Of a stretch of 64,000 bases of DNA, positions 25,936-57,124 are shown piece by piece; the first letter of the stretch is position 1, and the number at the start of each line of letters is the position of its first letter. This stretch comes from Cladocopium goreaui (lineage: Eukaryota > Sar > Dinophyceae > Suessiales > Symbiodiniaceae): assembly GCA_947184155.2 (NCBI GenBank), contig CAMXCT020001028.1:1-64000 (forward strand), in the 5' to 3' direction. The position numbers were made by a program, and so were the translations under genes. The notes below the pieces were generated by a model that did no database searches, was not told the origin of the DNA, and saw nothing but the letters and a program-made list of their open reading frames with translations.

Positions 25936-26910
25936 CTAGGCAGGCATGTAGGCAGCTGTGATATCCTGCAGTGGTTGGCGCAGGTTATATCGGTGCAGCC
26001 GAATGCAGTCTGTTCGGACCATCCATATCACTGTGGTGTTGCGCAACATCCATGATGGAATACGCCAGGTCGGCGTTGGGTGTACCCAGTCATCTGTGAG
26101 CAACCATTCCGCAGGTGTGGTCATGTCCACCAACGTTGGAGCCAGCTTCAATCCAGCTCTGTAGTGGCCGCCTTGGTCTTGGCCAAGGTGTGCCATCAGC
26201 GCCACGGGCTGATATTCCACAGGTTCATGTGTCAGTCCAGCTCCTTGAAAAACTGGTACTATGCATGGTGTGTCAATGTTGATCATGCAGTCGCTCTTGT
26301 GAATCCTGCCTGTGTTGTCCCTGGTCAGTCTGTCTATGTGAAGACAAAGGCATACAGGAGCCGTGGTCAGAGCGGCTTGCATTCCGTCCACCTGGCGCCA
26401 GAGGCTGAACAGTTGGGTGAGATCACAGCTATTGGCAGTTGATGTAGTGGCATCCATGTGCAACCAAAGTGGTGTGTATTTGCCACTGCTATCCACGATG
26501 CAAACGCGATCATTTTCCATGTATCTGCGCTCCCAACGCATGTCAAAAGCTGGCGTGGCCATTTGAGTGAGCCACACATGAAGAAACTCAGTTGCATCCT
26601 GCTGCGTGATATCATCAGAATCGACGGCAGGATCCTGTTGTCCCCAGCAACGCAAGGTGTCCTGAAACCAGTCTTGTTCCATGAGATTGGCATGAGTGGC
26701 ATAATTGGCAAGAAGGAAAGACGTCAGCTGGTGGCGTTGCTTACCCCAATAGTTGAAGTCACATGGGTCCAAGGACAGTGTTGTCCACATGAATGTAGTG
26801 ACTGCAGAATTTGCAAAACAAATATTGCCTGGATTTTCCAGGGTGAGAAACGCCACATGTGTGAGAAGGTGTCTCATGTCATGATTGGTCAGGTCAGGCA
26901 TCGGAGTCAT
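25936..26910 (-). CDS. Ubiquitin-specific protease (USP, C19) domain ORF of LINE element 1
   Basis: A 324-codon ORF whose ATG overlaps the stop of the upstream ORF as ATGA (26907-26910). All USP boxes are visible. The Cys box is ENPGNICFANSAV with the nucleophile in NICF, followed by QQDATEFL, the His box GQDQGGHYRAGL and a late DD pair (LLTDDW) that can supply the third triad residue. Length and spacing fit a compact USP fold. Known chemistry of the family is cleavage of ubiquitin from proteins. The likely role, sparing element proteins or target-site factors from degradation, is inference. It is in the same frame as the RT ORF. The homologous domain occurs in elements 2 and 3, so it is a standing part of this LINE family and not a chance fusion. 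Confidence 0.85.
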   Translation of the reverse strand: MTPMPDLTNHDMRHLLTHVAFLTLENPGNICFANSAVTTFMWTTLSLDPCDFNYWGKQRHQLTSFLLANYATHANLMEQDWFQDTLRCWGQQDPAVDSDDITQQDATEFLHVWLTQMATPAFDMRWERRYMENDRVCIVDSSGKYTPLWLHMDATTSTANSCDLTQLFSLWRQVDGMQAALTTAPVCLCLHIDRLTRDNTGRIHKSDCMINIDTPCIVPVFQGAGLTHEPVEYQPVALMAHLGQDQGGHYRAGLKLAPTLVDMTTPAEWLLTDDWVHPTPTWRIPSWMLRNTTVIWMVRTDCIRLHRYNLRQPLQDITAAYMPA

Positions 26911-29051
26911 GGTTCCTCCTTCTTCGCAGTCTGGCCTTTGGATTTCGTCTTCCCTTTCCCCTGTCCTTTCGTTGTGGGCTGGGTCAGTCCCAGCGTCTTC
27001 TGCAATTGGTGCGCCAATGGGCTCTGTTGAAGGCTGTGCATCTTCAGTGAGCCTCCCATGGTCAGCCAGATGGCTGAGTGGCATAGCAGTCGCATCAGTT
27101 GCCAGGGCTGGTCTGCTCGCATGCTCAGCTGCAACCTCCATGGCGTCACTTCTTTGTTGTTGGTCATGGGCAGGGAGTGGAACCTCATCACCAGATGAAC
27201 GTCGCTCAGAGCTTCCAGCATGTCTGTGCAGATCTGGTGCAGGTGTTTCAGCGTGAGTGGTTTGCGTTGACTCACCCTCAGCTGTCTGGCCTGCGCATCC
27301 CATTCCAGGTATGGGCATGTTCCATCCGGCAGCAAGACCAATGTCTGCAAGGCCCGTGTCTTCAGGTCCGAGCCCTCCTTGGCCGTGGCCAGATGGTCCA
27401 GCTTGGTCAGCAGAGTGTTGAAGACCACCTGCATCAGCTTCAGGCGCAGGGGGAGCATCGGCGTCTTCTGCTGGCCCTGTCGGTGCTGCTGATGTTCCTG
27501 GGCCCAGGTCTCTGTCGTCTGCATGAGCAGGTTGATGCAGCTGTCTTGCCCTTTGTTGCCGAAAAAGAAGATGTAGGTGTCCTCCTTCTTCATCAGCTGC
27601 ATATCCCTGTCCAGCTTGAGCGCCAGTTTTGCCAGCTGTGACATTGCGAGGGCCAGATTTACGTTGTTGGCCATGGTCTTTGGGTGTGTCTGTTGGGCCG
27701 GTTCGCCTTTTCTTGGCCTTTTGGGCGGTGCCGCATTCTGTTCCAACTTGAGAGTCTTGTCCAGGTAGGGTGCCATGTGTTGGAACGCTGTCCAAATCTG
27801 TGCACTCATCTCCAGGGACTCGTTCATGTCTTCGTCGGCCATGTCTGCCATGTGCAGCCTTGCTGAGGATGACAGCTGTTTGCAACAGATTTGGGCACTG
27901 GGCTCGAAAGTGAGCTTGAACCGTCTGGGTGCGGTCAGGTGCACTGTGCGTGACAACATCCTCAGGGTGAACACTTGTTCACATGCATAGCACTGAAAGT
28001 CTGTGGCCTGTAAGCTCATGTATCTCGTCAAGAGTTGGTGCATCAACAATCGCACAAGAGGCTGACTACAGTGGTGCACCTCATGCATGTGAATCACTAG
28101 GTCGGCAGGGTGAAGCTTGGCAGCGCAGAGGACACAGTTTTGCCTCAGAATGTCCACAATGGGTGGATCTTTCCAGAGTGCTTCAATGTTGCCCCCAGTG
28201 AGCGCCCTTTCTAGGAGGAAACGGTGTTCCCGGTCAAGCTTTCTGGAAAACATCTGGGCAAGTTCATCTTCCGTTGGAACATGTGGATACAGCAGTGGGT
28301 CCGGCAGGCGCATGAACAAAAGTGCTAACTGGCGCAGTGGTACACACACGTGATGAGGTCTGAAGTTCCCAATGTTGGGGTTGCATAAGCAACCTGTCTC
28401 ATTGTACAGGAGTTCCACTAAAATTCCCGTGAGTCCTTGAGCCATCGACCATAACTTGTCATGCGAGGCCTGGAGGTGACCTGAGAGGTCAGATGCTCGG
28501 CTGTACCGGCATCGGCAGTGCTGGCAGTGAAGAGACAGCTGCATTCTCACATGTGGGTCCCTGAGTGTGTCTGCAAGTTTGCCATGACAGAGAGCGTCAA
28601 TCCATTGTGGTCTCACTTCCAGTACTTCCGTTGGCAGTTCCGGGTTGAAGCTGAGGCATCTGCCCTGGCTTATGTGAGAGCGCAGAGATTCGACATTGTC
28701 ATACATGGTGAGGCAGTGTGCGCACACCGGCTCTCCATCCAGTGTGTCTCTGGCAGCATTAAAGCTGTTGCTCGGCAGCCGGTGCTCAGTGACAAGGTGC
28801 GCATGCAATGCTTCACTGGTCTGAAAGTGCTCCATGCAGATTTCACACCTTTGTGCCAGTGGTGTCTGTGTGCCATCAATTTGGAGCCCGCCTCCGTAGA
28901 TCAACATCATGGCCATCTGGACCCAGACGGGGCATTGGTGGCAGTTCTTGAAGAGTGCCCCGCAAAATGCGCATGGCGTCTCCTCCCCATAAAGGGTTGT
29001 CAGCTGAATCCCCTTTGCTTGAATGTGTGGCCAAAACTCTGGATGGTGCAA
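26907..29051 (-). CDS. Zinc-finger array plus PYLxWD/RFHxL domain, LINE element 1
   Basis: This segment is in the +1 frame relative to the RT. A one-base indel near 29055 separates it from the preceding finger. The first half has C2H2-type fingers, for example CEICMEHFQTSEALHAHL. From about 27850, starting near a MADEDM peptide, comes a less cysteine-rich region. It ends in the conserved block CPYLEWDAQ, then VMRFHSLP, then CHSAIWL. The same block occurs in elements 2 and 3 at the same relative place. A basic tail (KGQGKGKTKSKGQ) closes the ORF. The upstream methionine is a GTG/TTG-type codon, so no true start is implied; translation probably continued from the RT frame before the indel. The fingers likely bind nucleic acid. 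The block's function is unknown. Confidence 0.75.
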   Translation of the reverse strand: MHHPEFWPHIQAKGIQLTTLYGEETPCAFCGALFKNCHQCPVWVQMAMMLIYGGGLQIDGTQTPLAQRCEICMEHFQTSEALHAHLVTEHRLPSNSFNAARDTLDGEPVCAHCLTMYDNVESLRSHISQGRCLSFNPELPTEVLEVRPQWIDALCHGKLADTLRDPHVRMQLSLHCQHCRCRYSRASDLSGHLQASHDKLWSMAQGLTGILVELLYNETGCLCNPNIGNFRPHHVCVPLRQLALLFMRLPDPLLYPHVPTEDELAQMFSRKLDREHRFLLERALTGGNIEALWKDPPIVDILRQNCVLCAAKLHPADLVIHMHEVHHCSQPLVRLLMHQLLTRYMSLQATDFQCYACEQVFTLRMLSRTVHLTAPRRFKLTFEPSAQICCKQLSSSARLHMADMADEDMNESLEMSAQIWTAFQHMAPYLDKTLKLEQNAAPPKRPRKGEPAQQTHPKTMANNVNLALAMSQLAKLALKLDRDMQLMKKEDTYIFFFGNKGQDSCINLLMQTTETWAQEHQQHRQGQQKTPMLPLRLKLMQVVFNTLLTKLDHLATAKEGSDLKTRALQTLVLLPDGTCPYLEWDAQARQLRVSQRKPLTLKHLHQICTDMLEALSDVHLVMRFHSLPMTNNKEVTPWRLQLSMRADQPWQLMRLLCHSAIWLTMGGSLKMHSLQQSPLAHQLQKTLGLTQPTTKGQGKGKTKSKGQTAKKEEP

Positions 29052-30408
29052 CTTGTAAATGGCGGTTCAAGTCTTGGGTTCTGCCTAGGAATTGGTCGCA
29101 AAGACAACATCTATTGGCAAGGTATGTGCTGGCTGCCGTCTCCTTGCGCATGTGGTGCCACGAGCGGTTGCCCACTATGGTAAGGATGCGACGTCCCCAC
29201 TCCTGATTCAAGATGTTGCGCAAGTCGGAATCTGTCAACAACGTGGTGCCTCTTACAGGAGCATCCTGCTTGGCCGCAAACATCTCAGGTGGCCTTGCTG
29301 GATCTGCTTCAAGGGGAAGCGATGGATCAAGCCAGCACGTTGGAGGACCCACAATGAGTACCTGGCAACCGCGTTGGATGTGCATGTGAAAGGTCCTCCA
29401 GCTGGTGAATGTCTGTTGGCAGAATTTGCACTGTGGTAAACCATGGTGCATGTACTGTTTCTGGTCAGCCGGTTGGCTGCGTGCCATGGGTTGTGCATGC
29501 ATGATGGTACAGTGTCTGCGGAATTGCGCTGGATCAGTGGTGGCATAGGGACATTGCAAACATGTGTGAACTGCAGTGGGCACGTCAAGGGCACTCGGTT
29601 GGACAGGCTGCTCAGGTCCTGTTTGCAGGTGCCAGTCAATTTGGAATCTGAGTGTGTCCAGGTGGCTCCAGTCCAACAAACAAATAATGTCACTGGGGTC
29701 TGTGTTGGCAAGGCGTTGGTTCAGAGACTCCTGCAGGCTGTCAACGGAGTTCAGCAACCAGGCAAGCGGTGGGTCTACGTGATTCAAAGCAAGTGCTTGT
29801 TGATGGCTCTGTCCTGTGATGTACGCGTGGTTGCAGAGAATCTGTCTCAACATGCTGTACATATGCAGTTGTATGTGCTTCAATCCAAAGGTGGTCAGGC
29901 CAATGGGGAAAATGCCATACGTCATGATTGGATAAACACAAGTGGTGAACAGGCTGAGTCTCTGTTGCTTGCGTAAACCACGTTTCCCTGTGAGCCACTT
30001 GCGCAGTCGTGTGAAGGCAATGCGGGACAACTGGACGCGATGTTTCACTGTCTGGTCTTCAAATTTGGCATATGACATCACAGCTCCCAGATATATGGCC
30101 TTGCTGGCGATGGGAATCCACACTGTGTCATTGTCCTCATCAGAAAACCGCAGCCATTCCTTTCCCTCTCGCCAGGCTGTCAATTGGGCTCTGGTGCGGC
30201 GGGAGCAGGTGCCGCTCAAGGTGAGCAGTGCTGTACACTTGTTGGGATTGATGAGCAGTCCAAAGCGTTTGAGCAGTTGCAGCGTCTTTGTGATGTTGTG
30301 CATGAGTTGTTGAAAAACATCACCCATCTGATAATCGTCTGCGTAAACATTCAAGCATGAAATCACCCAGTTTGGACTGGTCTCTTTCAGGAGCTCCAGC
30401 AGGAAAAG
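28876..30408 (-). pseudogene. RT C-terminal half and first zinc fingers, LINE element 1
   Basis: This segment is in the same frame as the preceding EN-RT ORF, from which it is separated by one TAG codon (30409-30411). It starts with the rest of the palm: the NVYADDYQ catalytic box lies about 25 codons after the stop. Thumb and connection follow, then C2H2 fingers such as CKFCQQTFTSWRTFHMHI and CCLCDQFLGRTQDLNRHL. After the last finger the frame slides out of homology by a one-base shift and ends at 28876. The nonsense codon splits the RT between the QGC and YADD motifs, so this copy should not make an active enzyme without suppression. Confidence 0.8.
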
Positions 30409-33400
30409 CTACATGTAGCCAGTCCAGAGTAAGGGTGCCGCGCGACATCCTTGTCTAACTCCACACCCTACAGAGACTGGGGTATCTTCTCCATTGCAGT
30501 TGATGTGATAGTGAGTGTTTTGGTGCCAGTGGGATAGCAACAACACTGTTTGGGGGTTAATGCCCACCTCACCAAGTCTGCTGAAAAGTTTTTCACGGCA
30601 CACCCCATCGAAAGCCTTTTCAATGTCGAGGAACAATTGTAGGCCCCCCACTAAACGACATCTGGCAATTCCCTGTTGTCTCGTAAAAGGTGTGGATTTG
30701 GAGCTGGCAGTCAATGTCCTGGCTAAATGGCAATGTCTGGATACTCTGAGCAAGGCCTCTTGAGTCGATTTCCCTGGGAGATAGGCCCATAGGGGCATTT
30801 GGCAAAAAGCCGGAAACGCCTCACGCATGGCACCTTTGGTGAGCAGGCCTACAATACACTTACTGATGGGTTCCTGCAGCGCCAGAGGGCGCAATGCCCC
30901 CGGTGTCGTGGGAGGCTTGTGCGGTTTTGGAATGAGCAACATCCATGCATCTCGAAACCAACTTGGAATGAATGGTTCAGGACGATCCCACCAGTATGTG
31001 AGAAGTGCATGCAATGGTGGTGCAAGTGTGACAGCAAGCATGCGCCACACTGGGGCAGGAGCGCATGGGCGTGCCACAGCCTTGGACACCGGTATTTGGC
31101 TCAGTTCCTTCTCTAGGTCCTCCACCGTGAAGGGCATGCCTGAGAAGCGATGTGCAGCAGTAGGAAAGGTGCAAGGTCCACGCCACGTGTCCATGACATG
31201 TTTCTTCAACAGTGCAGCCTCTTCAATCGGTGAGGCAATGTGTCCCTGGGGATTGCGTAACTGCATCTTTCTCATGGAGGTTTTGGGGGAAAACTTGTTG
31301 ATGATGGCAAACAGTGTTTTGCTGTCATGCCTCTGTGCAGCATGACTGGCACTTTGGATGACCTCATCAAAACGGTGCTTTCTGATTGTCTTGGCATGCT
31401 GCTTGGACCGTCGGTCCAACTTGGCAAAACTTGCCAAGTGCATCCACGCTTGAAACATGTTTGGCAGCGTTTGTGTCGTCAGTCTCATCAGTGCCCGTCT
31501 GTGTTGCCACTTGTTAAGGACAATGTTGGTGAATGTGGAATCATGAGGTTTTTGGTTTGGTCGTGCATGTGGAAAAAACTCGTGTAAACATTGGTTGGCC
31601 ATGTGGTGTAATTGTGGTATGAGCTCATCATCTAAGGTCAGGACCTCAGGCAGGCTGGCCATCAAACGCGTTGCAGCTTGGTGTGCAAACTCTTGCCATT
31701 CCGGTGCATTGGTTTGATAGGCAAACTGGCATTGCTTTCTCTGCTGTGGTGTCACTCCCCAGGCATTCTGAGCACGTTTGGTCTGAAACCATTGCTTCCT
31801 GAGTTTGGCAATCATGGGTACGTGGCCGGTGGACCCTTGGAATGGAGCATCCCAGGCATATGTCACCTGCTTAGCGGCACCATCTGCAACATGTTTGCGC
31901 GTGATGATAAAATCTATCCTGGAACAGGTGTCAGCATGAACAAATGTCGGCCCCAGTTGTGGATGCCAGCTGTTCAAGGCTGTGAGTCCATGGTCTCTCA
32001 GCATTGTGGTGAATCTTCCATTGTCGGCATGTGTAGCCCCTCGGGTGAGGGTTCTATTCCAGTAGAACTTATCTGGTCCACTGTGTGAAGTGGATTGCAA
32101 AAGGTCACAGTTGAAATCCCCTGCCAAAACTAATATGTTGCGTTGAACAAGTCCATGCAAGAACAAGTCCAGTTGGGTCCAGAGCTGCTCTCCGTGCTGT
32201 TGGCATTGCCGGGTGGCAACAGAGGTGTGTTGGTAACACCCCACGAGGTCAACGCATCTGGAGGCATGTTGCACTTGCACATGCAGGAGCCGTCCAGGCA
32301 CCACTGGTCTCCATCGCAAACTGTTGGCAGGGCAAAAGTGCTTGGCCAAAATGCAAAGAATACCCATTCCTTTATGGGAAGGATCCCCTGTGTGTATGAA
32401 ATGAAAGTGATCATCCATCCACGTGTTTTCAAAGCACCATCTGGTCTCGGTTATGAAAGCCACTTCAATGCACTGGTTCAGCATCCAAACTTTCAACTCA
32501 TCCACTCTAAAAGCACCAAGCCCTCCCGCATTCCAATTCAGCACTCGGAATCTTTTGTTGTCAGTGTGCAGTTGATTGCATGAGATGAGAGGCTGTGATG
32601 GGGCAGGAGGTCTCTGTGGTTGAGGTTTGTATGTGTCACGCAACGCCTTGGGGAAGTCTTGAGGTGTGTAGCTTCTGCCTCTATACCATGAGATCCCATG
32701 TTGGAGAGATCTGGCATATGCTCTTTTCAGGCTTCTTTTCACTACCTGCCGTGGTGCAGATAGCCAGCGTTTTGCATTCACGCTTGTTTCTGGCCGCATG
32801 TCATGTGGCTTCGCGTCAACTTGGGTTTCATGTGGCTCAAAGGATTGGGTCAACGCTTCAGCATCTTCCATGACTAAGATGCAACCCTCGCTCCTAGTAG
32901 ATTCAGTGGTGATGTAAGTGAGCAGGATCAAACAGCAAAAACACAGCGCAGGTCTGCTGAGGACCCTGGCAGGGTTGACAAGGAATCTACTCCTGGATTT
33001 GGGACCAGGTTTGCACCAAAAAAATGAGAGAAAAGGCAATGCACTCAGCCAGAACTGTGTGTTCACGGTCCTACCCCAGGCAATCAAAATGAGCACAACG
33101 TTCTGCCACAGAAATGATGTACAACACCAGGCTGTCACTGTGAGGTTTCTTTGACCCACAGTTTTCAACTCAGGGATACTGTGTGAGGAGGCACTCTGAA
33201 AACCAGGTTCACTGTCAGCTTTTGAAAACGCAGTCAGATTCAGTCTCGTACAGCACAAGATGGTTAGAATCAAAAAACTGGTCAAAACGTAACAGTCCGT
33301 TCTGTCAGATTCAGCAGTGTCTGTCAAGTTCAATGCAGCGGGATCCAAAAGTGTTGAAATACAACAGCAAATGTCAAAATAAAATGGAAAAATGTTCAGC

Positions 33401-34491
33401 AGCAATTCAGAGACCTTGTAGATCTGAGCAGGCTGCAGTGCAAATGAGCTGCAGCTTTTGTCACCTGACTGTTGTCTTGTTAGGGCCAGTGAATAAAAGC
33501 CAAGGGAGCCCACCCCGCACTGTAGCTGTATCCAAAAAAAGAATGATCGGAGTCCAAATTTTGTGGCACAGGTCAGTGAGAGAAGCAGTCCACCGGTTGT
33601 GTTGTCAATTTCAAAGCACAGAGTTTGTAGTGCCTGCTCACGGGCCAGTGAAAAATTGTGGGAGCCCACCCCCTGCTGGTTGTCTGCTGGTTGTAAATCC
33701 GAGGAGCAGTCTGGTGTTCCACTTGTACGGGCCAGTGAAAAACTCAGGGAGCCCACCCCGTGTGAGTCTACTATCGTTTGGGCCAGTGACAACTCAGGGG
33801 AGCCCACCCCTTTTCTCGCGTCTGTCCAGTGAGAAGGTTGTCTGTCAGATTGTTGAAATGCTGCTCTGAGAATATGTTGTTTCAATCCAAATGATGCAGT
33901 GCAAGTCGGTGCAAAATTGCCCTGAAACTTGTCACCTCCTGGGAGAGATTGCAGGGCCAGTGAAAAAATTGGGGAGCCCACCCCTTGCCAAACTTCTGTC
34001 CGATCAAACGCCAAACAGAAGTGCAGGAAGCTAGCATGTTCAAGGGCCAGTGAGGTCAAATGAAGGGAGCCCACCCCAAGAATATTCGTCCAAATGAAAT
34101 TATGCTGTCCAGGTGCAAAAAGTTCAGGGGCCAGAAAAGCTGAAGGATATAGGGAGCCCACCCCGTGATATTGGTCCACAATTCGCGTATGGAGAGTTGT
34201 TGCAATGGTGTCAAGGGCCAGTGTACAATGTGCACAGGAGCTCACCCTGTCAAAATCGACTGAGGTTGTGCCCACACTGTATTGTCGCGTTCCAATATCC
34301 AATCCTGTTTGTCTGTTGTTGGAACTGTCAGACAGGGTGTCCAACCCTTTGCACTGCTGATGCACCCAAGGGCCAGTCAGAGCGTCTTGGGAGCCCAATC
34401 CCCAGAGATGGGTGCACCAGCGCTGCTGTAATTGATCCAAGTCGAGGACAAAGGTGAGCTGCCCGAGCACAATCCAGAAAAACTTCGTCAC
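30409..34491 (-). CDS. AP endonuclease and N-terminal RT with GVGS-repeat leader, LINE element 1
   Basis: A 1360-codon open frame. Residues 1-540 are upstream of the conserved methionine (ATG at 32871) and include at least seven copies of a GVGS...SLA motif. After that ATG come a basic block shared with elements 2 and 3 (KRSLKRAYARSLQHGISWY) and the AP endonuclease from about residue 650. Endonuclease landmarks are LNWNAGG, ITETRW, GDFNC near 790 and SRIDF near 858. The RT begins near 1010, with FLDIEKAFDG near 1290 and GVRQGCRAAP near 1345. The frame stops at TAG just before the YADD box. The first listed codon is GTG, so the true start is more likely 32871 or an upstream initiator in the repeat leader. 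Confidence 0.82.
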   Translation of the reverse strand: MTKFFWIVLGQLTFVLDLDQLQQRWCTHLWGLGSQDALTGPWVHQQCKGLDTLSDSSNNRQTGLDIGTRQYSVGTTSVDFDRVSSCAHCTLALDTIATTLHTRIVDQYHGVGSLYPSAFLAPELFAPGQHNFIWTNILGVGSLHLTSLALEHASFLHFCLAFDRTEVWQGVGSPIFSLALQSLPGGDKFQGNFAPTCTASFGLKQHILRAAFQQSDRQPSHWTDARKGVGSPELSLAQTIVDSHGVGSLSFSLARTSGTPDCSSDLQPADNQQGVGSHNFSLAREQALQTLCFEIDNTTGGLLLSLTCATKFGLRSFFFWIQLQCGVGSLGFYSLALTRQQSGDKSCSSFALQPAQIYKVSELLLNIFPFYFDICCCISTLLDPAALNLTDTAESDRTDCYVLTSFLILTILCCTRLNLTAFSKADSEPGFQSASSHSIPELKTVGQRNLTVTAWCCTSFLWQNVVLILIAWGRTVNTQFWLSALPFLSFFWCKPGPKSRSRFLVNPARVLSRPALCFCCLILLTYITTESTRSEGCILVMEDAEALTQSFEPHETQVDAKPHDMRPETSVNAKRWLSAPRQVVKRSLKRAYARSLQHGISWYRGRSYTPQDFPKALRDTYKPQPQRPPAPSQPLISCNQLHTDNKRFRVLNWNAGGLGAFRVDELKVWMLNQCIEVAFITETRWCFENTWMDDHFHFIHTGDPSHKGMGILCILAKHFCPANSLRWRPVVPGRLLHVQVQHASRCVDLVGCYQHTSVATRQCQQHGEQLWTQLDLFLHGLVQRNILVLAGDFNCDLLQSTSHSGPDKFYWNRTLTRGATHADNGRFTTMLRDHGLTALNSWHPQLGPTFVHADTCSRIDFIITRKHVADGAAKQVTYAWDAPFQGSTGHVPMIAKLRKQWFQTKRAQNAWGVTPQQRKQCQFAYQTNAPEWQEFAHQAATRLMASLPEVLTLDDELIPQLHHMANQCLHEFFPHARPNQKPHDSTFTNIVLNKWQHRRALMRLTTQTLPNMFQAWMHLASFAKLDRRSKQHAKTIRKHRFDEVIQSASHAAQRHDSKTLFAIINKFSPKTSMRKMQLRNPQGHIASPIEEAALLKKHVMDTWRGPCTFPTAAHRFSGMPFTVEDLEKELSQIPVSKAVARPCAPAPVWRMLAVTLAPPLHALLTYWWDRPEPFIPSWFRDAWMLLIPKPHKPPTTPGALRPLALQEPISKCIVGLLTKGAMREAFPAFCQMPLWAYLPGKSTQEALLRVSRHCHLARTLTASSKSTPFTRQQGIARCRLVGGLQLFLDIEKAFDGVCREKLFSRLGEVGINPQTVLLLSHWHQNTHYHINCNGEDTPVSVGCGVRQGCRAAPLLWTGYM

Positions 34492-34577
34492 GGATGGCGT
34501 CGTGGTGTCCAGAGTTGAGTTTCAATCCAAAATTGCAAAAAGAAATGGCCAGTCAGAGCAAAAGGGGAGCCACCCCC
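33483..34577. repeat. 5' repeat array of LINE element 1, about 87-bp spacing
   Basis: Ten copies of GGGCCAGTGA followed by 8-13 variable bases and GGGAGCCCACCCC (plus strand) start at 33483, 33642, 33728, 33780, 33954, 34044, 34127, 34215, 34370 and 34546. Spacings cluster around 87 bp or its double. Elements 2 (42960 and 42995) and 3 (44887) have only one or two copies. Confidence 0.85.
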
Positions 34578-35225: not shown

Positions 35226-37766
35226 TTAGTGTGGCTCAGTGTGGACTGCATTTTCAGTTGAAGATTCCACGCAGGAGAGCAACTCATCGGACCGTGTGGT
35301 CTCAGCTGCTGCAGTCGGATCCAAACGAGCCCGCTTTGGTTCCTGAATCAGGGCGGCGTCCTTCTCAGTGTCATTCAGCAGTCTGTTGGTAGCGGAGCCA
35401 GTTGTGTGGGCACTGCTAGATGACGCAGAAGCCTGTGATGGTGGCCTCAATTGCAAATGGGTAGCGGCATTGGCATCGGTGGGCTCCTGATTGTTGGTGC
35501 CCTTGGTGGTGTCCGGCTTGGCATGCATGGTCCTGACAGAGAGGTTGTCTGGATATACGAGCCAAGTCATGGTCATGTTGCACAAAATCTCATCAGTCAA
35601 TTGGTCGACATGATCTGGAAGTTTGTTATCATCATAGATCAGCCGGCTCCCATGGTACTTCAGAGCTGTTCTGTGGTGTCCAGTGTTGGGTCCATGTCCA
35701 ATGTGAAAAGTCACTGCCGCAATGTGAAAAGTGAGAAACTGAATCTGCCCCTCAGCATCTGCAAAGCAAGGAAATTCCACTGTTCCATCTGCGATGTCAA
35801 TTGCTTGAATGCATTTTTGATTTTGACCGTCAATGTGCCGGTCGAACATCAAAACGAGGCATCGACTTGCCTGGTCACTTGCTCGACAAAGACCTGATGA
35901 ATCATGCCAGAATGAGATCAAGTCGCGAAGTGTGCACTGAGGAACCGTATGATCAATAAAACGCATCAAAATGGGTGCAAACCGATCGCCCTTTTCACTG
36001 TCGAGCAATGGGTGTGACTCCTTTGTGACCCACTGGAATTTCGTACACCATCGGCATGAGAGGAAAGTAGGGCCCATTCGATCAATGATGAAGGTGGCAA
36101 ACTCCAAAATGTCTTGTTGGGCTGTCAAATCCTCTGCCGTGAAAGCCCCAAAGAGCAGCCAGAGAAACGGCTGAAAAGTTCTCAAATTCAACGGAAAGGG
36201 ATTCCATTGACACAAACCCCTCAAAAGCTCAAAGCCATACGCCCAGCAAGAAGGTGTGAGGCCCTTGCATAACAGGGTGCACCAGGCCAGTGCCTGCATT
36301 GCCGAGTTGACATAGCACATGGTGGCCGTGTCATTCACAAGAATTCTCACCAAATGCTTGGGGCGATCATCTACATCATCCGTCCCAATTGTTTCGCCAA
36401 ATTGGTTCTTTGCTGATTCTGTGGTCTCAGCGTCAACCTCACAAGTTGCCAGACGCTGTGATATGATACTTTGCGCAGCAAATTCCACAGCTCCCCTTGG
36501 GTTCGACTTCCCACTGTCCATAGGAAGGGAACTGCCTTTCCCTCCGACTCCTCCATCTGGAGCTTGCTCAGGGCATGAAACCTGAGAGTGATCTCCGTCT
36601 CCGATTGGAGGATCAGGAGGATGGACTGGAGGATCTTGCTCACCTCTCCAATGGGCAGTGGCGACTCCTTGCTCGGAACCAGCTGGTTGTGGCTGGCATC
36701 CCACCTGAGATACGGCATCTGCTGGCTCGCATCGATGAGGTTGAAACGAATGCAGTCCTTCACCACTTCCGCGCTGGCAGGCGCGTTCTGCAGTCGGTCC
36801 AGCCGCTCCTTGAGCGTTGAGATCATCGTGAGGGCCATGGTGTGTCGCAAGGTGTGGGTCTTGGGACCTGCTTGCCATTCCTTGTGGCAGGCCATCAAGA
36901 TTGGCAGTAGGCTGCCCTCCCCCGGCTTGAGGAAGAGCACAAATTCCATTTCCTGAAGCAAGACATGGATCGTGTCCTCGTGGCGGAGGAGGATCTTGGC
37001 CATCACCTTGACCATCGCTGCTGTGTTGTCTGAGCTGTCCGATCTGGAGGCTGTTGTAGATGAACCACGGTCCTTCTTCCTTTGGCGTTTGTTGGGCTTG
37101 ATGTCTTCCTCGTCTTTGATGCCAAGACTGAGGAGTTGGCCTGGTGTCAATAGGCCACTCCAAATCGTACTCGCTTTGTCCAGATCGTCGGCCATTGGTG
37201 AGAAGAACTGCTAGGTTCAAAAGCGCTGGACACACCCGGGCCCGGGACTCCTCGTGCTGTTCAGAGCCACATAAGAGGCAAGGCTGGCAGATCAGCTGCA
37301 ATCTGTGAAGACACCACAGCGTGTTGAGCTGCTTGAAATCATGTTGTTGCAAATGTTTCACAAGCGCGCCAGGCATGATGAAAAATTTGTGGCACATTAG
37401 GCATTCATGCTTGATGATTTCACGAAGAGTGTCGTCTTGGATCATGAGCATGCCGCATGTGGCCAACAAATCGAAATCCTGACCAGTGGTGTCTGAGTTC
37501 CAAGCATTGAACATCAAGCGCTGGTGCTCTTGGCGTTGAAATGCAGCTTCCACGGCCTGTGGTGTCGGCCAAGCCAGAGGGTCAAGTGGCTGTTTATGAA
37601 GCACAGGGTGCATCAAGAAGGCCGCCAAATGCAGGATCAGGGGGCATCCAGGTAAGTGCAGTTCTGGTACTGGATCAAATGTGAGCACATCCAATGTCGG
37701 CAGAAGCTCTTGACAGTGATCGCAGTATGGATCTTCTGAGTGCTCAGCGCCGTAGATCCTGCAGAG
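35226..37766 (-). CDS. Last zinc fingers and USP (C19) domain, LINE element 2
   Basis: This is in the same frame as the upstream RT ORF, separated by a single TAA (37767-37769). It opens with finger remnants (CDHCQELL, then CLMCHKFFIMPGALVKHL). The middle third (about 37195-36371) is the shadow of an overlapping +1-frame ORF and is low in complexity. The USP domain begins near 36360: Cys box TMCYVNSAMQAL, QQDILEF, His box GPNTGHHRTALK, and YDD near the end. All three triad positions are present, although the canonical GGHY is GHHR. The C-terminal tail is Ser/Thr/Gln-rich. The domain may be read by re-initiation or frameshifting after the +1 ORF. Elements 1 and 2 share the -1 relation between these two ORFs. 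Confidence 0.8.
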   Translation of the reverse strand, partial: LCRIYGAEHSEDPYCDHCQELLPTLDVLTFDPVPELHLPGCPLILHLAAFLMHPVLHKQPLDPLAWPTPQAVEAAFQRQEHQRLMFNAWNSDTTGQDFDLLATCGMLMIQDDTLREIIKHECLMCHKFFIMPGALVKHLQQHDFKQLNTLWCLHRLQLICQPCLLCGSEQHEESRARVCPALLNLAVLLTNGRRSGQSEYDLEWPIDTRPTPQSWHQRRGRHQAQQTPKEEGPWFIYNSLQIGQLRQHSSDGQGDGQDPPPPRGHDPCLASGNGICALPQAGGGQPTANLDGLPQGMASRSQDPHLATHHGPHDDLNAQGAAGPTAERACQRGSGEGLHSFQPHRCEPADAVSQVGCQPQPAGSEQGVATAHWRGEQDPPVHPPDPPIGDGDHSQVSCPEQAPDGGVGGKGSSLPMDSGKSNPRGAVEFAAQSIISQRLATCEVDAETTESAKNQFGETIGTDDVDDRPKHLVRILVNDTATMCYVNSAMQALAWCTLLCKGLTPSCWAYGFELLRGLCQWNPFPLNLRTFQPFLWLLFGAFTAEDLTAQQDILEFATFIIDRMGPTFLSCRWCTKFQWVTKESHPLLDSEKGDRFAPILMRFIDHTVPQCTLRDLISFWHDSSGLCRASDQASRCLVLMFDRHIDGQNQKCIQAIDIADGTVEFPCFADAEGQIQFLTFHIAAVTFHIGHGPNTGHHRTALKYHGSRLIYDDNKLPDHVDQLTDEILCNMTMTWLVYPDNLSVRTMHAKPDTTKGTNNQEPTDANAATHLQLRPPSQASASSSSAHTTGSATNRLLNDTEKDAALIQEPKRARLDPTAAAETTRSDELLSCVESSTENAVHTEPH
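36371..37195 (-). CDS. PYLRWD/RFHAL-domain ORF, LINE element 2
   Basis: A 274-codon ORF beginning with ATG (MADDLDK, matching MADEDM in element 1), in the +1 frame relative to RT and USP. It has a basic patch near residue 35 (KRQRKKDRG) and a helical middle. The conserved block is MPYLRWDAS, TLRFHALSKL and VPFLWTVGSR, ending with WQLVRL. An in-frame TAG lies six codons upstream of the ATG, so the start is well supported. No family is recognised. Conservation in three elements while DNA and flanks diverge suggests a real domain, perhaps RNA- or protein-binding (inference). Confidence 0.7.
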   Translation of the reverse strand: MADDLDKASTIWSGLLTPGQLLSLGIKDEEDIKPNKRQRKKDRGSSTTASRSDSSDNTAAMVKVMAKILLRHEDTIHVLLQEMEFVLFLKPGEGSLLPILMACHKEWQAGPKTHTLRHTMALTMISTLKERLDRLQNAPASAEVVKDCIRFNLIDASQQMPYLRWDASHNQLVPSKESPLPIGEVSKILQSILLILQSETEITLRFHALSKLQMEESEGKAVPFLWTVGSRTQGELWNLLRKVSYHSVWQLVRLTLRPQNQQRTNLAKQLGRMM

Positions 37767-40700
37767 TTACACCACAACTGGGTGCAGATCATTGGGTCCC
37801 AATTGATGTTCCAAGCGCAAATGCACAGTGATGTATTGCAGAGAAACTGATTCACCACAGATTGTGCAGTGACTCTTGGGCAGGTTCATCAGGGCACTGT
37901 CTCGCCAAAGCTTGTCGAACTGCCTCGTGAGAAGACACAATGAAATCCTCTTGAGGTCTGTCAGGGTCAAAAGGTCTCCAATGTGCGACAGCAGTTCATT
38001 GGTCCGGAAAGTCCAAGGAAGGAAGAGTTGCCAGTGTGCCTGGACTCCCAGCATCGCCGCCTGAAGCAGAGCAGTGCACATGTGGCCCGGAGTGCCAAAT
38101 CCCCTGGTGGGGTTGCAAGCGCAACCAAAGTCCTGGAACAACACCCAAGTGAGCAGCTGTTGATACGTCGAGCTCTCAGCCACCAGTGCTTCGTGATGTT
38201 GGTGAAGATGACGGGTCAGGTCATCACCACACCTGCTGACATGACCGCAAATCTGGCAATGCAATGTCAATGCAAGCTTCAGCGCTGGTAGCCGATATAA
38301 AAGATGCACAAAGCCCGACCACAGCAGTTGCTCCATACGTTCTTGGGAGGTGAGCGCCAAGTTGGGAGGCATCGCAGCAGCGTCTGCTTGTTGCTCTCGT
38401 TCCCAAAGCAACCTGGCCAGAGCAAATTGGTGAAATACCAAGCACACATGTTTTGCATGATGTTGAGCTGGAATGCAATGGCATTTCTGTTCTGGATTGT
38501 GTCGTGTGGCAAGATCAGCTGCCATGCGTTCAACCTCTGCCCATTCAGATGGGTGCCCTTGTTTCACATGTCTGGAAGTGTCCTGTCTTCTTCGAAAGGT
38601 CTTACTGCAGGCTAAACACTGAGCACTGATGTGCTGCAGAATGTCAGGATCATCCAGCAAGCTCTCGGCCCTGTTGGTCTGCACTGCCTGATCAATCAGG
38701 CAAGTGATTTCCAAGAGCTTCCAGTTGTTGTCATGGAGAGCCTGCTCTGCGCGGTGACATCGCTGGAGATGCTGCGCCAAGCCATGTTTGGTCGTGTAGG
38801 CCTTTCCACAGGTCTCACAAATCAGCTTCTCTGTCTCTGCAATGTCACAGTAGACTGCAGTAAGATCCATTTCCGTAAGGAGCATTGCCAGTTGTCTCCA
38901 GATAATACACTTGTGATATCTGGTGTAGGAAACTGAGCATAGTTCACAGGGATTGCTCACTGTCACGTGAGCGCAGTAAAACTGAAGAGCAGGAAGATGA
39001 TGCTGAAACGTCCGTGCATGATCATCATTCCAATGTCGCATCAAGCCAGTAACAGTGGAATGAAATTTCCCACAAATGGCACAATGATGAAGAAAATACA
39101 TCAAAAGCACTGCATTTCGACAGAGGGCTGCGACTTGATGTGCTCTGGCAAATTGCAGGAGCTCCTGCACCCTCAAGCGGTGTTCCACCTGATCGATCTC
39201 CTGCAAGGCAGTTGTGCAAACAAAAGTAACATGATATTGAAATCTGTGCCATGTGGTAAATCTCTCACCGCATCGTTGACATGTTGGAACTGCAGGAGTA
39301 GGTTGCATCGTCATCAATCTGAGCTTGCCTGATCGTTGTCCATGATCCACAGTGCAATGCCTACGCAATGAAGTCAAAGTGGAGAAGGTCATGCCACAAA
39401 TATTGCATTCATGTGAGTCAATGGTGTGGTGGGCCTCTGTCGCAGGCAAATCAGCATGCACTTGCTCGTACACCTTGTCAATGACCTGAATCAAAATGTC
39501 ATAGTTCGGCAAGGGAGTAAGTCGAAGAATGTCATCATCTTGAAGGTTTTGATGTCTGAGCAAGGTGCGTCTGGCTGTTTGGAGACAAAGATCACGCAAG
39601 CGCAGAAGGGGATGAGGCAGGTTGTGTTTGTGGAAAAATGTCCAGTTGTTCTCTTTGGTGAGATGAACAGGTTCACGGAGGATTCTTCTCAATTGCTTGA
39701 TGCAGAATCTGTAGAGTAAGGTGATTGTGACATCAGTAAATCCCGTGGCTATGATCCCGTATCGTAAGCAAGCATACGTACATTGGTACCATATCTTGAC
39801 TCTTTGTTTGGCGCTGAAGCGTTGAGTGAAAAGCCAGCGATGGAGCTGATGAGACGTCTGCTCGCTGTGTTTCAATCTCAACCGCATTGTTTCTCGTTCA
39901 AAATTGTGATAGGACAGCATGACCCCCAGATATTTGAATGATCTTACCAATTTGATTTTTGTAAATGAACCATCTGAACGTGGAATCTTGACAAATGTTC
40001 CATTTTGTGTCCTGAGCATGAATTTCCGTTGAATCTTCCCAGTTGATTTTCCAGTCATTCTGAGAGTAATGGTGGTCTTTGCCAAGTTCAGTTCAAGATT
40101 GGCGCCCTCGATCAGGTCAAGGAGGGTGCCAAACGCATGCAACAGGGTCTCAAAGGATTCCTCATTGTCAAATGTGCTATGTGAGCAAATGTCATCTGCA
40201 AAAATCGTAACGCAGAGAAGAAGAAACTGCGGTGAAAGCTTGTTGGCAAGTTCTGTCATCAAAACTGAGATGAAAACTGTCCAAAGGCATGGGGCCGCCT
40301 TGCAGCCTTGTCGTATGCCTCGATGTGTTTTGACTGTTCTGTGAGCCCCTCGGTGTTCGAACTCATAGGCCGTGGTATTGTAGACACATTGCAAAAGGCT
40401 GATAATGTCTGTTGTGACTCCAAGAGATATCAAACCTGCAAATAAATGTGATCTATCAACCATGTCGAATGCCCGGGTTAGGTCAAGACACAATGTCATC
40501 CCACCAAGCAATGAGGGAGCAGCCATGCCCATTCGTTGTCTGTGCAGTGGATAACTCATCTCACTCGCCTTTTGCCTGACTAGCCTGCAGTGATTGGCAA
40601 GTCGATGTATGGCATCATCAGTACCACGGCCTCCAGCATAGGCAAATTGTGGCAGTCGATGCAAAAAGTGCTGCAATTGTTGTTGGATGGCTTTGGTGAC

Positions 40701-42371
40701 CAAGCCTAAAGTTATCTTCCCAGTCGGCTCCAACAGGGCAATCGGGCGCAATTCCGAGGGGTGTTGACCTCGTTTGCCCGGCTTGACAAGCAGGGCCAGG
40801 TTGCCCACCCCCCACATTTCTGGAAAGCTCGGAACCTTGCAACAATCATGCAGCATCCGTGCAAGGTAATGGGCAATTGCCTCAGCTCCATACTTCCAGA
40901 AGGGCGCTGGTGAGAACTGGGGTGACAAAGCCTTATGAGTCGGCAGGGTTTGTAGCCCATGTGTGAAGTCCGCAACTGTGAATGGCCATTCAAAGGGTTC
41001 AACTGGAAAATGAGACACTCCATCTGAGTACAGGTCGTGGAACCATTGTTGTAACCAGTCAGCAGCTGCATCAGGTCCAAGGAGATCACCTTGCAGTGAG
41101 CGGAGCAAGATACGCTTCTGTGGCTGTTTTGGTGCAATGGATCTGATTGCCTGAAACAGGGTAAAATGATCTTGGGCTCGTTCAGCTCTGTCTGCAGCAT
41201 CATAGACCTGATCCAGTCTGTGTTTGCGAGCTGCCTTTGAGGCTTGGGCCATGAGATGTCTTGCTTTGCATCTGCAACTGACATGAAACCATGCTCTGAA
41301 GAGTCCAGCCAGATCGCGAGTCCGTACCCTTCTCAGCTTCAATGTGTGTTCCTGGAATCGTCGAAATGGCCCAACATCCAATCTGTCAATTTTGTGGGTT
41401 TGATCATGTTGGAATGGTTTGCCAGAAAACTGATTCAAGGTCTCATGTAGCAGTGAAAGATCTGATGCATTGGATTCCTCGAGTCGACGTACAGCAGCGT
41501 TCACCTGTGCATGAAAAATGTCAAAAACGGTGTCCTGTTTGGTGCAATGCTGGTGAAGTTGAAGCCGTTGTTGTCTCGTCCATCCACTGTTATGCTGTTT
41601 GTGTTCAGGAAACCATTCACGCCTGATGGTGGTCATCAGTGGTACATGAAAAGCGCCAGTGATGGGGACCAGTGCGAAGTCCCTGAGCAGTTTAACGTCT
41701 CTTGCTGTTTGATCGGCATGAGCTCTTCGAATGCAGATGTAGTCAATTCTGGATGAATGATTGCAAAATTCATAAGTGGGTCCATCTCCTGCATTCCAAG
41801 TATTGAGAGCCATCAAATCAAATTGCAAAAGAAGTTGTTTCCAATGATCAGCATCTGGATGTCTCGGCCCATGACAGCGTTTGCCATCTTTGGCAAATGT
41901 CGGATATCCCACAGCATTGGTTCTCTGATCTGCAGAACAGTTGAAATCGCCAGCCATGAGCAAAACATTCTTCTTTGACAGCGTGGTGAGCAAAGTAAAC
42001 AGTTGATGCCAGAGTCGTTCTCTAGATTCCATGTGGCTAGGGATACAAGTGAATTGATAAACATTGATGATATCTATGCATCTCGACCCCCCATGGATTT
42101 TCAGCTGTAAAATGCGCCCTGGGATGTGTTCATGCCAAGAGAGATCTGATGGATGGCAGATACGTTTTGAGACCATGCACAAAAGTCCAGCCTGGTTTGT
42201 CTGGTTGCCAGAGTGCACCATCATGTATCCCTTGGACATCCAGTCGCTAGAGAACGGCCAGTGAGTTTCCTGAAGGAGGAGAACGTCGACTGTTTGCTGC
42301 TCCAGCCACATTGTCAAGAAGTCCCAGTGAGTTGGTGGAAGCCCATTGCAGTTCCATGAGAAACATGTCAA
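37767..42371 (-). CDS. AP endonuclease, reverse transcriptase and zinc-finger protein, LINE element 2
   Basis: An uninterrupted frame of 1534 codons. The endonuclease starts at once (FSWNCNGL at residues 4-11), then LLQETHW, GDFNCS near 142, SRIDYI near 208 and the HVPL motif near 240. RT landmarks are LDLTRAFDMV near 630, RQGCKAAP near 690 and FADD near 722. From about residue 985 come at least seven C2H2 fingers, for example CNICGMTFSTLTSLRRH and CAICGKFHSTVTGLMRH, unevenly spaced. The first codon is TTG and no ATG precedes the endonuclease in this frame. The basic N-terminal block lies in the adjacent frame (42247-42660), so a one-base indel or a frameshift near 42375 must join them. Function: target-site nicking and target-primed reverse transcription. 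Confidence 0.88.
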   Translation of the reverse strand: MTCFSWNCNGLPPTHWDFLTMWLEQQTVDVLLLQETHWPFSSDWMSKGYMMVHSGNQTNQAGLLCMVSKRICHPSDLSWHEHIPGRILQLKIHGGSRCIDIINVYQFTCIPSHMESRERLWHQLFTLLTTLSKKNVLLMAGDFNCSADQRTNAVGYPTFAKDGKRCHGPRHPDADHWKQLLLQFDLMALNTWNAGDGPTYEFCNHSSRIDYICIRRAHADQTARDVKLLRDFALVPITGAFHVPLMTTIRREWFPEHKQHNSGWTRQQRLQLHQHCTKQDTVFDIFHAQVNAAVRRLEESNASDLSLLHETLNQFSGKPFQHDQTHKIDRLDVGPFRRFQEHTLKLRRVRTRDLAGLFRAWFHVSCRCKARHLMAQASKAARKHRLDQVYDAADRAERAQDHFTLFQAIRSIAPKQPQKRILLRSLQGDLLGPDAAADWLQQWFHDLYSDGVSHFPVEPFEWPFTVADFTHGLQTLPTHKALSPQFSPAPFWKYGAEAIAHYLARMLHDCCKVPSFPEMWGVGNLALLVKPGKRGQHPSELRPIALLEPTGKITLGLVTKAIQQQLQHFLHRLPQFAYAGGRGTDDAIHRLANHCRLVRQKASEMSYPLHRQRMGMAAPSLLGGMTLCLDLTRAFDMVDRSHLFAGLISLGVTTDIISLLQCVYNTTAYEFEHRGAHRTVKTHRGIRQGCKAAPCLWTVFISVLMTELANKLSPQFLLLCVTIFADDICSHSTFDNEESFETLLHAFGTLLDLIEGANLELNLAKTTITLRMTGKSTGKIQRKFMLRTQNGTFVKIPRSDGSFTKIKLVRSFKYLGVMLSYHNFERETMRLRLKHSEQTSHQLHRWLFTQRFSAKQRVKIWYQCTYACLRYGIIATGFTDVTITLLYRFCIKQLRRILREPVHLTKENNWTFFHKHNLPHPLLRLRDLCLQTARRTLLRHQNLQDDDILRLTPLPNYDILIQVIDKVYEQVHADLPATEAHHTIDSHECNICGMTFSTLTSLRRHCTVDHGQRSGKLRLMTMQPTPAVPTCQRCGERFTTWHRFQYHVTFVCTTALQEIDQVEHRLRVQELLQFARAHQVAALCRNAVLLMYFLHHCAICGKFHSTVTGLMRHWNDDHARTFQHHLPALQFYCAHVTVSNPCELCSVSYTRYHKCIIWRQLAMLLTEMDLTAVYCDIAETEKLICETCGKAYTTKHGLAQHLQRCHRAEQALHDNNWKLLEITCLIDQAVQTNRAESLLDDPDILQHISAQCLACSKTFRRRQDTSRHVKQGHPSEWAEVERMAADLATRHNPEQKCHCIPAQHHAKHVCLVFHQFALARLLWEREQQADAAAMPPNLALTSQERMEQLLWSGFVHLLYRLPALKLALTLHCQICGHVSRCGDDLTRHLHQHHEALVAESSTYQQLLTWVLFQDFGCACNPTRGFGTPGHMCTALLQAAMLGVQAHWQLFLPWTFRTNELLSHIGDLLTLTDLKRISLCLLTRQFDKLWRDSALMNLPKSHCTICGESVSLQYITVHLRLEHQLGPNDLHPVVV

Positions 42372-42660
42372 ACGTCTTCTCTGAATGGCTCTTGGGGGGG
42401 TTCACATTCTTGGATCTGGGTACAGCAGGAGATGCCTGTTGTGTGCCAAGCTGTGATGCCGTATACAGTCTACCCTTATACCAAGTGATTCCGTGAATTC
42501 TCGCCCTGGTCAAAGCTCGTTTAAAACTCCTTTTGCAAACTTGTCTATGAAAACCAGTCTGGTGCGATTCTTGAATCTTTCTGGGTTCCCATCCATGTTG
42601 TTTCGTGGAAGGCCAAGTGTCAAAAGTCTTGTCAGGTGCATCCACTCTCTCATCACCCAT
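42247..42660 (-). CDS. Basic N-terminal block, LINE element 2
   Basis: It starts at the methionine conserved in all three elements, directly after an SEGF-like peptide (MGDERVDA). It carries the shared basic motif KRSFKRALTRARIHGITWYK at residues 45-65, likely an RNA-binding or nuclear-import patch (inference). The frame then runs past the start of the endonuclease in a different frame and stops at 42247. In element 1 the equivalent block is fused in frame to the endonuclease. Confidence 0.6.
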   Translation of the reverse strand: MGDERVDAPDKTFDTWPSTKQHGWEPRKIQESHQTGFHRQVCKRSFKRALTRARIHGITWYKGRLYTASQLGTQQASPAVPRSKNVNPPKSHSEKTFDMFLMELQWASTNSLGLLDNVAGAANSRRSPPSGNSLAVL

Positions 42661-43226
42661 GGAAGTGATGAAACCCTCACTCCTCATCAGTCCACCAAAA
42701 ATGTTGATTCCAAAAAGAGTCCAAAAGACCAGAAGAGCTCTTTGTTGGTGTCCTGATGGCCGGAATTGGGACCGGCTAGCGGTCTTCTTCTGTAGATCTC
42801 TATGATGAAGAGGCGAAGCAAAAATCTGGTTGGTGTAGATCAAAATTGAGCAGAATGCAAATGATAGAACTGCTTCGGCACTGAAGGGAGCGTTGTCCAG
42901 CAGCAGTGTTGCAGAGCCAATCAATGTGATTGCAAAACCCAAAATTATCTGAATCCACAGGCCAGAAAAGATTGTGGGAGCCCACCCCATCCACCAGTCA
43001 CGGGGAGCCACCCCCTCAGATCGGCCAGAATTAAGAAGACAAAGTAGAGAAGGAAGGTGAAGTCAATCGCCGAAAAGTAGTCACAGGATCAGCAGCAGCG
43101 ATTGCAACACCAGGCCGCCACAACGAAAGCCACCAGATGGCAAAGCGCAGTGGAACGTCGGGGGCAACTGCTACCCGCAGGGTTCCTCACCCTTTGAGTG
43201 CGGCTCTCGTGACCGCTCAGGAGCTT

Positions 43227-43246
43227 GTGTGTGTGTGTTTTTTTTT
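43227..43246. repeat. TG microsatellite and T8-9 run between LINE elements 2 and 3
   Basis: Same junction structure as between elements 1 and 2: element 3 ends in an A-run and CA repeats, and element 2 begins AAGCTCC. Confidence 0.85.
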
Positions 43247-43513
43247 CCTACCCCATTAACACCTTGTTGTGTCAGAAGGCGAGCTCAGCAACAGCTTGTG
43301 CTGTCGGCTATCTATGCGACTGATTTCGACGTCCGCAGTGGCAAAAGATGGACTTATCACACCAGGCCTATCCCTAGGGATTACAGGAGAAATAAAAAGT
43401 CGTAAAGGACAAGGTGAAAAAATCAAGTCATCCACAAGTAGTTGTTAGCAGATACTTGACGCACCAATCCAATGAATTATTGAAACTCTCAGTCGCTGTC
43501 ACCATTCGAAGTT

Positions 43514-44530
43514 TCAGCTGCCAGCAGCCGCACCACCAAGCAGCAGCCCGCAGCGCGACGCAAAAAGAAGAGCCAAGCGCCAGCAGCAAAGCGCATGAAG
43601 AGGAGCAGCAGCTAATGCATGCAAGTGGCTGGAAGTTAAAGAAAACAAAATTGCCATCCATTCCAGAGCCGTCCAATGCCCTGCAAGAACCAAGTTCAGC
43701 TCACCATCTAGGATGAAGTAAAGGGTTGTGCTCTGAGGAGATGGTTCAAAACGCAGTGCCCTCTGTTGCCAATGTCCGCTGTAATTGCTTCGCAAAGACT
43801 CATGTCGCAGCAAATCCAAGAGAATCAAATTGTTGGAAACAATGTTCCGCATCAATTCGAATCCACAGCGCCATTGCTCATAGACAAAGCCTCCTACAAG
43901 GAGCAACAACCAAGCCAAGCATTCAATCACCGAAATGGCTGCGCAAGCTCTGCCAGAGGGATTGAAGAAGAGGCTCACAGTGCCAAATCCCACATCGATT
44001 TCAGAAGCGGCGCCGCCAATGGTTGACGGGACAAGGTCTGTGGCTTCAGCCTCACCTATATGAGGTGCCAAATGGCATGATGCGATAAGGCCGCTAATTG
44101 CTGCTGAAGCTCCGGGCTGTTGCGAAGAGACAAGGTCCACAGCCACGGCACCGGCTGCTGCAATCGATCCCCTTCTTGGGTCTTCCAAAGAGCGTGAAAT
44201 CTCAGCGTCACACTGCTGTCCGCCATCAACCCCACTATGTTTCTGTAGACCACTGCAATCGGAATCCCCTGAGCATCTGTCTGCTGTAGGCATCGATGTG
44301 GATTGTCCCAACGTAGGAACGGCATTGTCCGATCTTTGTTGTTGACCACCAAGTGATACTGGACACAAGCCTGTATAACCATGTTGTTTGGCTCTATTGC
44401 GGGCCCTTCGAAAACTTCTTGTTGCCCCTTGTTTGCATGAATGTCTGGTGTGAAAAGGTTCGAAAACCGTTTTGAGCTCCTGTTCATGTTCTTTTGTGGA
44501 CGGTCTCGTGTCCACTCCTTCATGATGCAT
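43514..44530 (-). pseudogene. Element 3 fused frame: basic N-terminal block and truncated USP
   Basis: It starts at the conserved ATG (44530; peptide MHHEGVD). The basic block RSFRRARNRAKQHGYT is followed immediately by the deletion junction. The frame then passes under the PYLRWD-like block, which is in the +1 frame, and re-enters homology as a USP Cys box (NPSGRACAAISVIECLAW) and a following helix like that of element 2 (CGFELMRN). No QQD or His box is recognisable, so it cannot be an active protease. The tail is Leu/Ala-rich. Confidence 0.6.
44056..44370 (-). CDS. PYLRWD-like block in element 3
   Basis: The +1-frame segment after the deletion junction reads MPFLRWDN, VTLRFHALWK, VPWLWTLSLR and HHAIWHL, aligning without gaps to the block in elements 1 and 2. 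It confirms the domain as a family-wide feature and keeps the same frame relation to USP. Confidence 0.65.
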   Translation of the reverse strand, partial: ACVQYHLVVNNKDRTMPFLRWDNPHRCLQQTDAQGIPIAVVYRNIVGLMADSSVTLRFHALWKTQEGDRLQQPVPWLWTLSLRNSPELQQQLAALSHHAIWHLI

Positions 44531-53642: not shown

Positions 53643-53673
<31 letters not shown>

Positions 53674-57120: not shown

Positions 57121-57124
57121 TGTA

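Follow-up and report, generated by a model that had tools for sequence, protein, structure and literature searches.

Can a long interspersed nuclear element (LINE) carry its own deubiquitinase? The question is raised by a 64,000-nt stretch of DNA from the dinoflagellate Cladocopium goreaui (contig CAMXCT020001028.1, positions 1–64,000; hereafter the window), in which three LINE-type elements, all on the minus strand and arranged head to tail, occupy 25.5–45.2 kb. An earlier note, written from the letters alone, had proposed that these neighbors form a retrotransposon family ending in a C19-type domain, i.e. a ubiquitin-specific protease (USP).

The terminal protease domain and its elements

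The USP domain of element 1 corresponds, as the earlier note had it, to a 324-residue open reading frame (ORF) at 25936–26910; this ORF is located on the minus strand. Searched against Pfam, the parent ORF gave a significant match to UCH (PF00443; E = 2.1e-8, 34.6 bits against a cut-off of 23.9 bits), and the motifs previously picked out (NICF, QQDATEFL, GGHY and DD) are all present, with QQD at residues 103–105 and a predicted catalytic triad of Cys31, His249 and Asp274. The AlphaFold model, made for the element 1 domain only (pLDDT 78, pTM 0.81), adopts a USP fold with this conserved papain-like triad, and the 50 Foldseek and 50 VIA matches listed are all either USPs or larger complexes, the spliceosome among them. 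By profile, predicted fold and triad, the terminal domain of element 1 is a predicted ubiquitin-specific protease. The corresponding domain of element 2 (35523–36371, minus strand) is 23% identical to it and matches Pfam UCH weakly; the motifs attributed to it (MCYVN, QQDILEF, GHHR and a DD, within YDD) are indeed found. For element 3, described earlier as keeping a truncated C19 copy, the claim survives in part: a remnant lies below ~43996 with a Cys box resembling by eye that of element 2, but profiles do not support it, as the USP family profile gave 1.1 bits (E ~1) and the Pfam search no match.

That the units are of LINE type is borne out by their enzymatic parts. Element 2 (34780–43225, ends approximate, minus strand), a second copy from the same superfamily as element 1, holds the best-preserved one among the three, an ORF of 1544 residues (37767–42401, minus strand) in which an apurinic/apyrimidinic (APE)-type endonuclease (EN) and a reverse transcriptase (RT) share one frame, as in LINEs, together with C2H2 fingers (Pfam Exo_endo_phos 1.2e-12, RVT_1 1.5e-17, zf-C2H2_4 3e-06). 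The closest solved RT is that of LINE-1 ORF2p (1e-11), R2 proteins being found further down at 1.5e-4. Element 1 (25707–34746, minus strand) is an EN-RT-C2H2-linker-USP copy with an interrupted polyprotein frame, which begins at a (CA)n run and ends with A9(CA)n; its leader, N-terminal region, EN, RT and first C2H2 region span 28876–34521 (minus strand), with a stop within the RT at 30409. Its EN and RT are 32% identical to those of element 2 over 722 aligned columns, and the two are thus distant cousins. Element 3 (43238–45146, ends approximate, minus strand) is an internally deleted copy devoid of EN and RT, whose single open frame carries the N-terminal part through the linker into the USP remnant. 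A repeat search of 24–46 kb (minimum length 30) returned only simple, leader and end repeats and no LTR-like (long terminal repeat) ones; with no LTRs, the A6–A9 tract preceding (CA)n at the three 3′ ends fits a non-LTR retrotransposon. Note that the element 1 leader (33482–34248) contains repeated motifs around GGGAGCCCACCCC at spacings of 87, 51, 174 and 180, all multiples of three, and that the element 2 leader has a single copy of a GGGAGCCCACCCC-type motif at 42965–43000.

The protease domain in relatives outside the window

We collected relatives with two queries: the element 1 USP retrieved 13 proteins (E 1.9e-141 to 1.7e-27) and the element 2 EN-RT-zinc finger ORF retrieved 90. A USP family hidden Markov model (HMM) was built from 15 USPs, those of elements 1 and 2 and of the 13 matches, none of which belongs to the 90 EN-RT relatives, and was applied with a threshold of >50 bits. 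Other copies of the family also have the domain: it was detected in 36 of the 90 EN-RT relatives and in 21 of the 22 that are at least 2200 residues long. The remaining long one, P0099, is a distant named gene model, and its close relative P0098 has a USP piece with QHD (11.5 bits). Of the USP-positive proteins, 34 have an RT match; in these, the distance from the RT to the start of the USP is 681–1118 residues, and most USP-negative relatives stop before or around this expected start. Ten of the 54 USP-negative relatives extend at least 900 residues beyond the RT; P0081 (1157 residues) and P0098 (1450 residues) pass the expected start without a scoring USP, and both retain USP pieces, a GHY stretch in the case of P0081. 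Precomputed Pfam annotation assigns UCH to 14 of the 90 relatives, 7 of which also carry EN and RT (predicted proteins, each of which may be a single ORF or a spliced model).

The USP might be foreign to the element, i.e. a host deubiquitinase gene or pseudogene that adjoins, or was captured by, single LINE copies, and the broken state of the window copies and the weak Pfam score of the element 2 domain would be in line with such an origin. However, EN, RT and UCH occur together in predicted proteins on different contigs, the USP recurs in all but one of the long relatives, and RT and USP distances co-vary across 29 proteins (r = 0.91, a value reached by 0 of 2000 permutations). We thus regard a foreign origin as extremely improbable.

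Does the domain remain catalytic? In an alignment of 51 sequences (the 36 USP-positive relatives, the 13 USP matches and elements 1 and 2), the non-gap residues of the triad columns are conserved in 46/46 (Cys), 47/48 (His) and 48/49 (Asp) sequences, and Q103 and D105 are also near-completely conserved. A fold that has lost catalysis and is retained for ubiquitin binding or as a scaffold could account for the low identity of the USPs (mean 0.33 among 29) and for the single exceptions in the His and Asp columns; the preservation of all five positions across such divergent copies argues against it and makes a dead module quite improbable. Overall, the domain order, the USP fold, the conserved triad and the USP-RT co-divergence are established at the level of sequence and predicted structure. 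None of the outcomes that the earlier note had named as refuting its proposal (no significant C19 match, a fold lacking the triad, or a domain missing from other copies) was observed.

An RT tree was computed for 80 of the 90 relatives, 8 being omitted for a short RT and P0073 and P0092 for having no RT match; it comprises relatives from the EN-RT search only, with no named LINE clade references. The named sources among the 90 are C. goreaui (P0035, USP-positive), Symbiodinium sp. CCMP2592 and S. microadriaticum. The Skav gene name of P0071, also USP-positive, is taken here to denote Fugacium kawagutii, and P0104, an RT protein from Aphanomyces, is a weak match. Since the named relatives come from Cladocopium and Symbiodinium, the host range of the lineage most likely is the dinoflagellates, which agrees with the guess made from the letters.

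A reading frame overlapping the linker

At the level of sequence, the segment ahead of the USP is double-coding, a feature absent from the earlier note. The linker between the last fingers and the USP, which has a low-complexity look in the P0017, P0043 and P0030 polyproteins, is overlapped in the +1 frame by a second ORF, X. In element 1, X (314 residues, 26907–27851, minus strand) lies at +1 relative to the linker-USP frame and is recovered by an X HMM built without element 1 (94.0 bits at 27827–26991). In element 2, it lies at +1 within the linker (274 residues, 36371–37195, minus strand) and scores 445.6 bits, its own row being in the model; element 3 keeps a +1 remnant (43996–44388, minus strand; 106.8 bits). 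X has 30 database entries counting that of element 2, the others being 38–81% identical, and 21 of the 30 are 269–283 residues long. The protein of ~270 residues has a basic stretch near its N-terminus and is alpha/beta in the predicted model.

Both frames were then considered. In elements 1 and 2, no stop interrupts the linker frame; recoding of X predicts 16.4 stops there and left the frame open in 0 of 20,000 trials for either element. When codons were permuted within amino acids, it stayed open in 0 of 20,000 (element 2) and 80 of 20,000 (element 1). In 10 of 10 comparisons (five pairs), conservation is higher in X than in the linker. For the relatives, a dual-encoding test asked for polyprotein and +1 X on one DNA and was run on 26 of 104 proteins: dual encoding is possible over all 279 residues for P0021 with P0118, over 219 for P0022 with P0120, over 162 for P0017 with P0130 and over 138 for P0025 with P0111. 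We also scored an X profile, with element 1 left out, on all codon choices of the 400 residues ahead of the USP; the profile includes X proteins pairing with some of the tested polyproteins. The +1 scores are 39–286 in 31 of 36 proteins, compared to at most 14.7 in the +2 frame and at most 13.1 in control blocks (proteins long enough for one). P0035 scores 21.1, X lying in its own predicted frame, and P0089, P0091, P0093 and P0102 score 10.5–13.9; a wider X profile gives a merely suggestive 22.8 for P0093 and 17.5 for P0089. Judging from the openness of the linker, the conservation of X and its +1 signal in relatives, selection seems to act on both frames across most of the USP-bearing lineage.

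The arrangement differs in a distant set (P0090, P0094, P0095, P0096, P0098, P0099 and P0100), in which the predicted protein reads X directly downstream of the RT; splicing could have joined frames in several of them, which are GenBank models. P0089, P0091 and P0093, with the USP in the polyprotein, fall in the part of the RT tree common to P0090, P0094, P0096, P0098 and P0099 (support 0.73). Because this distant clade reads X in the polyprotein's own frame, the overlap may derive from a fused state by a frame switch. In P0020, P0031, P0052 and P0081, part or all of X lies within the polyprotein frame, the pattern that a frame break would give.

How would the two products be made? X could arise when ribosomes translating the RT polyprotein shift into the +1 frame, rather than from its own ATG, as the distant clade and P0081 have X after EN-RT-zinc finger in one predicted frame (in some cases a gene model). 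In element 2, however, a stop lies six codons ahead of the ATG in the X frame, and an M[GA]D start aligns in most complete X relatives, an agreement biased by ORF callers picking Met starts. Frameshifting is, in our view, unlikely, and we favor initiation at the ATG of X. A further possibility is that the USP has a start of its own and is made separately, through an ATGA stop-start with X or by trans-splicing, instead of as the C-terminus of the polyprotein. In element 1, the TGA stop of X indeed overlaps an ATG of the USP frame just ahead of the domain, P0010 has a Met-Thr at about the matching place, and in P0098, a distant gene model, an in-frame X precedes a USP piece. Against this, no stop closes the linker frame across X in elements 1 and 2, ~16 being expected, and the frame is also open in fused relatives of 2200–2630 residues; element 2 and P0002 are without that ATG. 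We hold a separate USP to be improbable and retain the polyprotein.

Possible insertion at (CA)n, proposed mechanism and known systems

The ends of the elements coincide with (CA)n runs on the minus strand: at the 5′ end of element 3 (45147–45160), at the joints of elements 3 and 2 (43226–43237) and of elements 2 and 1 (34747–34760), and beyond the A-rich 3′ end of element 1 (25693–25706), where the run belongs to a longer simple-repeat array. All three elements start with AAGC(T/C)CC directly after the CA run and end with A6–A9 followed by CA. The window holds nine CA/TG runs of at least 12 nt, four at element ends, two in the array past the 3′ end of element 1 and three elsewhere. This coincidence suggests (CA)n-directed insertion. 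Mino, of the R1 clade, is an example of (AC)n-specific LINEs. LINEs that target microsatellites are already known (PMC4640811).

We consider it likely that the elements represent a dinoflagellate lineage of APE-endonuclease LINEs that insert at (CA)n runs. Their main product would be one polyprotein, ~2200–2630 residues in the long relatives, composed of EN, RT, several C2H2 fingers, linker and C-terminal USP, the last presumably a deubiquitinase that is active and works in cis, on the same chain as the RT; a second protein, X, would be encoded over the linker in the +1 frame. By stripping ubiquitin from the polyprotein, from a ribonucleoprotein (RNP) partner, or from repair or replication factors at the nick, the USP would allow target-primed reverse transcription to be completed. 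The earlier note had offered two functions, protection of the RT complex or an action on chromatin ubiquitin at the target. Our first choice, tentatively, is that the USP acts in cis and that its substrate is the RT polyprotein or the RNP; substrates at the nick, whether repair, replication or chromatin factors, are possible and come second. X would probably begin at its own ATG, from a message perhaps trans-spliced or internally initiated, and, judging from its basic stretch, its size and analogy only, may be a nucleic-acid-binding RNP partner like ORF1p of other LINEs.

Several observations weigh against this reading. The window holds no copy with an intact polyprotein frame: besides the stop inside its RT, element 1 has frame breaks near 28.9 and 27.9 kb, and in element 2 the frame is broken near 42.3 kb and stops at 37767. 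The element 2 USP is under the Pfam UCH cut-off (E = 0.55 in the whole ORF; 0.015, 15.4 bits, alone); we assign it to the USPs, its row being included in the family HMM, because a close relative, P0073 (67% identical to element 2, with 34% of the query covered), passes the threshold at 2.9e-6. The profile searches detected no X in P0091 or P0102 and gave only a weak signal in P0089 and P0093; in the GenBank gene model P0035, X and USP share one predicted frame, and in P0081 X follows the RT in frame. The X frame stays open in 939 of 20,000 recodings of the element 2 linker, so its openness by itself is weak evidence and the case rests on X conservation. A structure search with the predicted X fold gave no significant match. 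Finally, the case for (CA)n insertion comes from one array at one locus.

Elsewhere in the window, a further retroelement-like ORF at 49447–52251 (plus strand), preceded by ORFs at 48307–49446 and 45995–47755, has a weak RVT_1 match (E = 0.011) and, by eye, a GIY-YIG-like N-terminal stretch; it is perhaps Penelope-like. Dense simple repeats and 12–40-bp tandem repeats fill 53501–57706.

Proteases of related types in mobile elements, which the earlier note had mentioned as OTU- and Ulp1-type, are documented in the literature. Deubiquitinase- or SUMO-protease-type domains are known to be fused to the enzymes of Ginger1, Helitron and Mutator DNA transposons (OTU or Ulp1), for which the authors proposed a role exerted via DNA repair that is regulated by ubiquitin or SUMO, and a Trichomonas transposase carries a peptidase of the same C19 family as the USP described here (PMC2836005); these are DNA transposons, whereas the USP element is a retrotransposon. 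Among LINEs, Utopia and NeSL have a cysteine protease domain of ubiquitin-like-protein type; it is reported from nematode families as Ulp1-type, N-terminal and associated with a restriction-like endonuclease (PMC4640811), whereas here a USP fold is C-terminal, accompanies an APE endonuclease and occurs in nearly all long relatives. SymbioLINE-Dnmt of Symbiodinium is likewise a LINE of dinoflagellates that has captured a chromatin-biology enzyme, in this case a methyltransferase in an upstream ORF, and the word ubiquitin does not occur in the main text of that paper (PMC5890265). LINE-1 ORF2p shares the APE-type endonuclease and RT in one protein, from which the USP LINEs differ by several C2H2 fingers, an X-overlapped linker, a C-terminal USP and ends at (CA)n. 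Among the matches listed in the open-licence literature, we found neither a LINE with a USP nor a conserved gene overlapping a LINE linker.

Studies of how ubiquitin controls retrotransposons usually start from the host. A LINE with its own deubiquitinase in cis, conserved among highly divergent copies, would, if true, turn this into the direct question of which ubiquitin marks block target-primed reverse transcription. The lineage would also provide a pair of conserved, overlapping genes within a LINE, along with a distant clade whose X is free of overlap. In practice, automatic annotation may confuse USP LINEs with host USP genes or with LINE-1, since the name assigned to P0035 shows such confusion. 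On balance, we lean towards viewing these elements as an old dinoflagellate LINE lineage for which ubiquitin editing would be a core step of retrotransposition, a presumably active USP ending the polyprotein in nearly all long copies, and in which, for most of the lineage, the path to the USP overprints the conserved X, so that one stretch of DNA would serve two proteins, the linker and a putative RNP protein.
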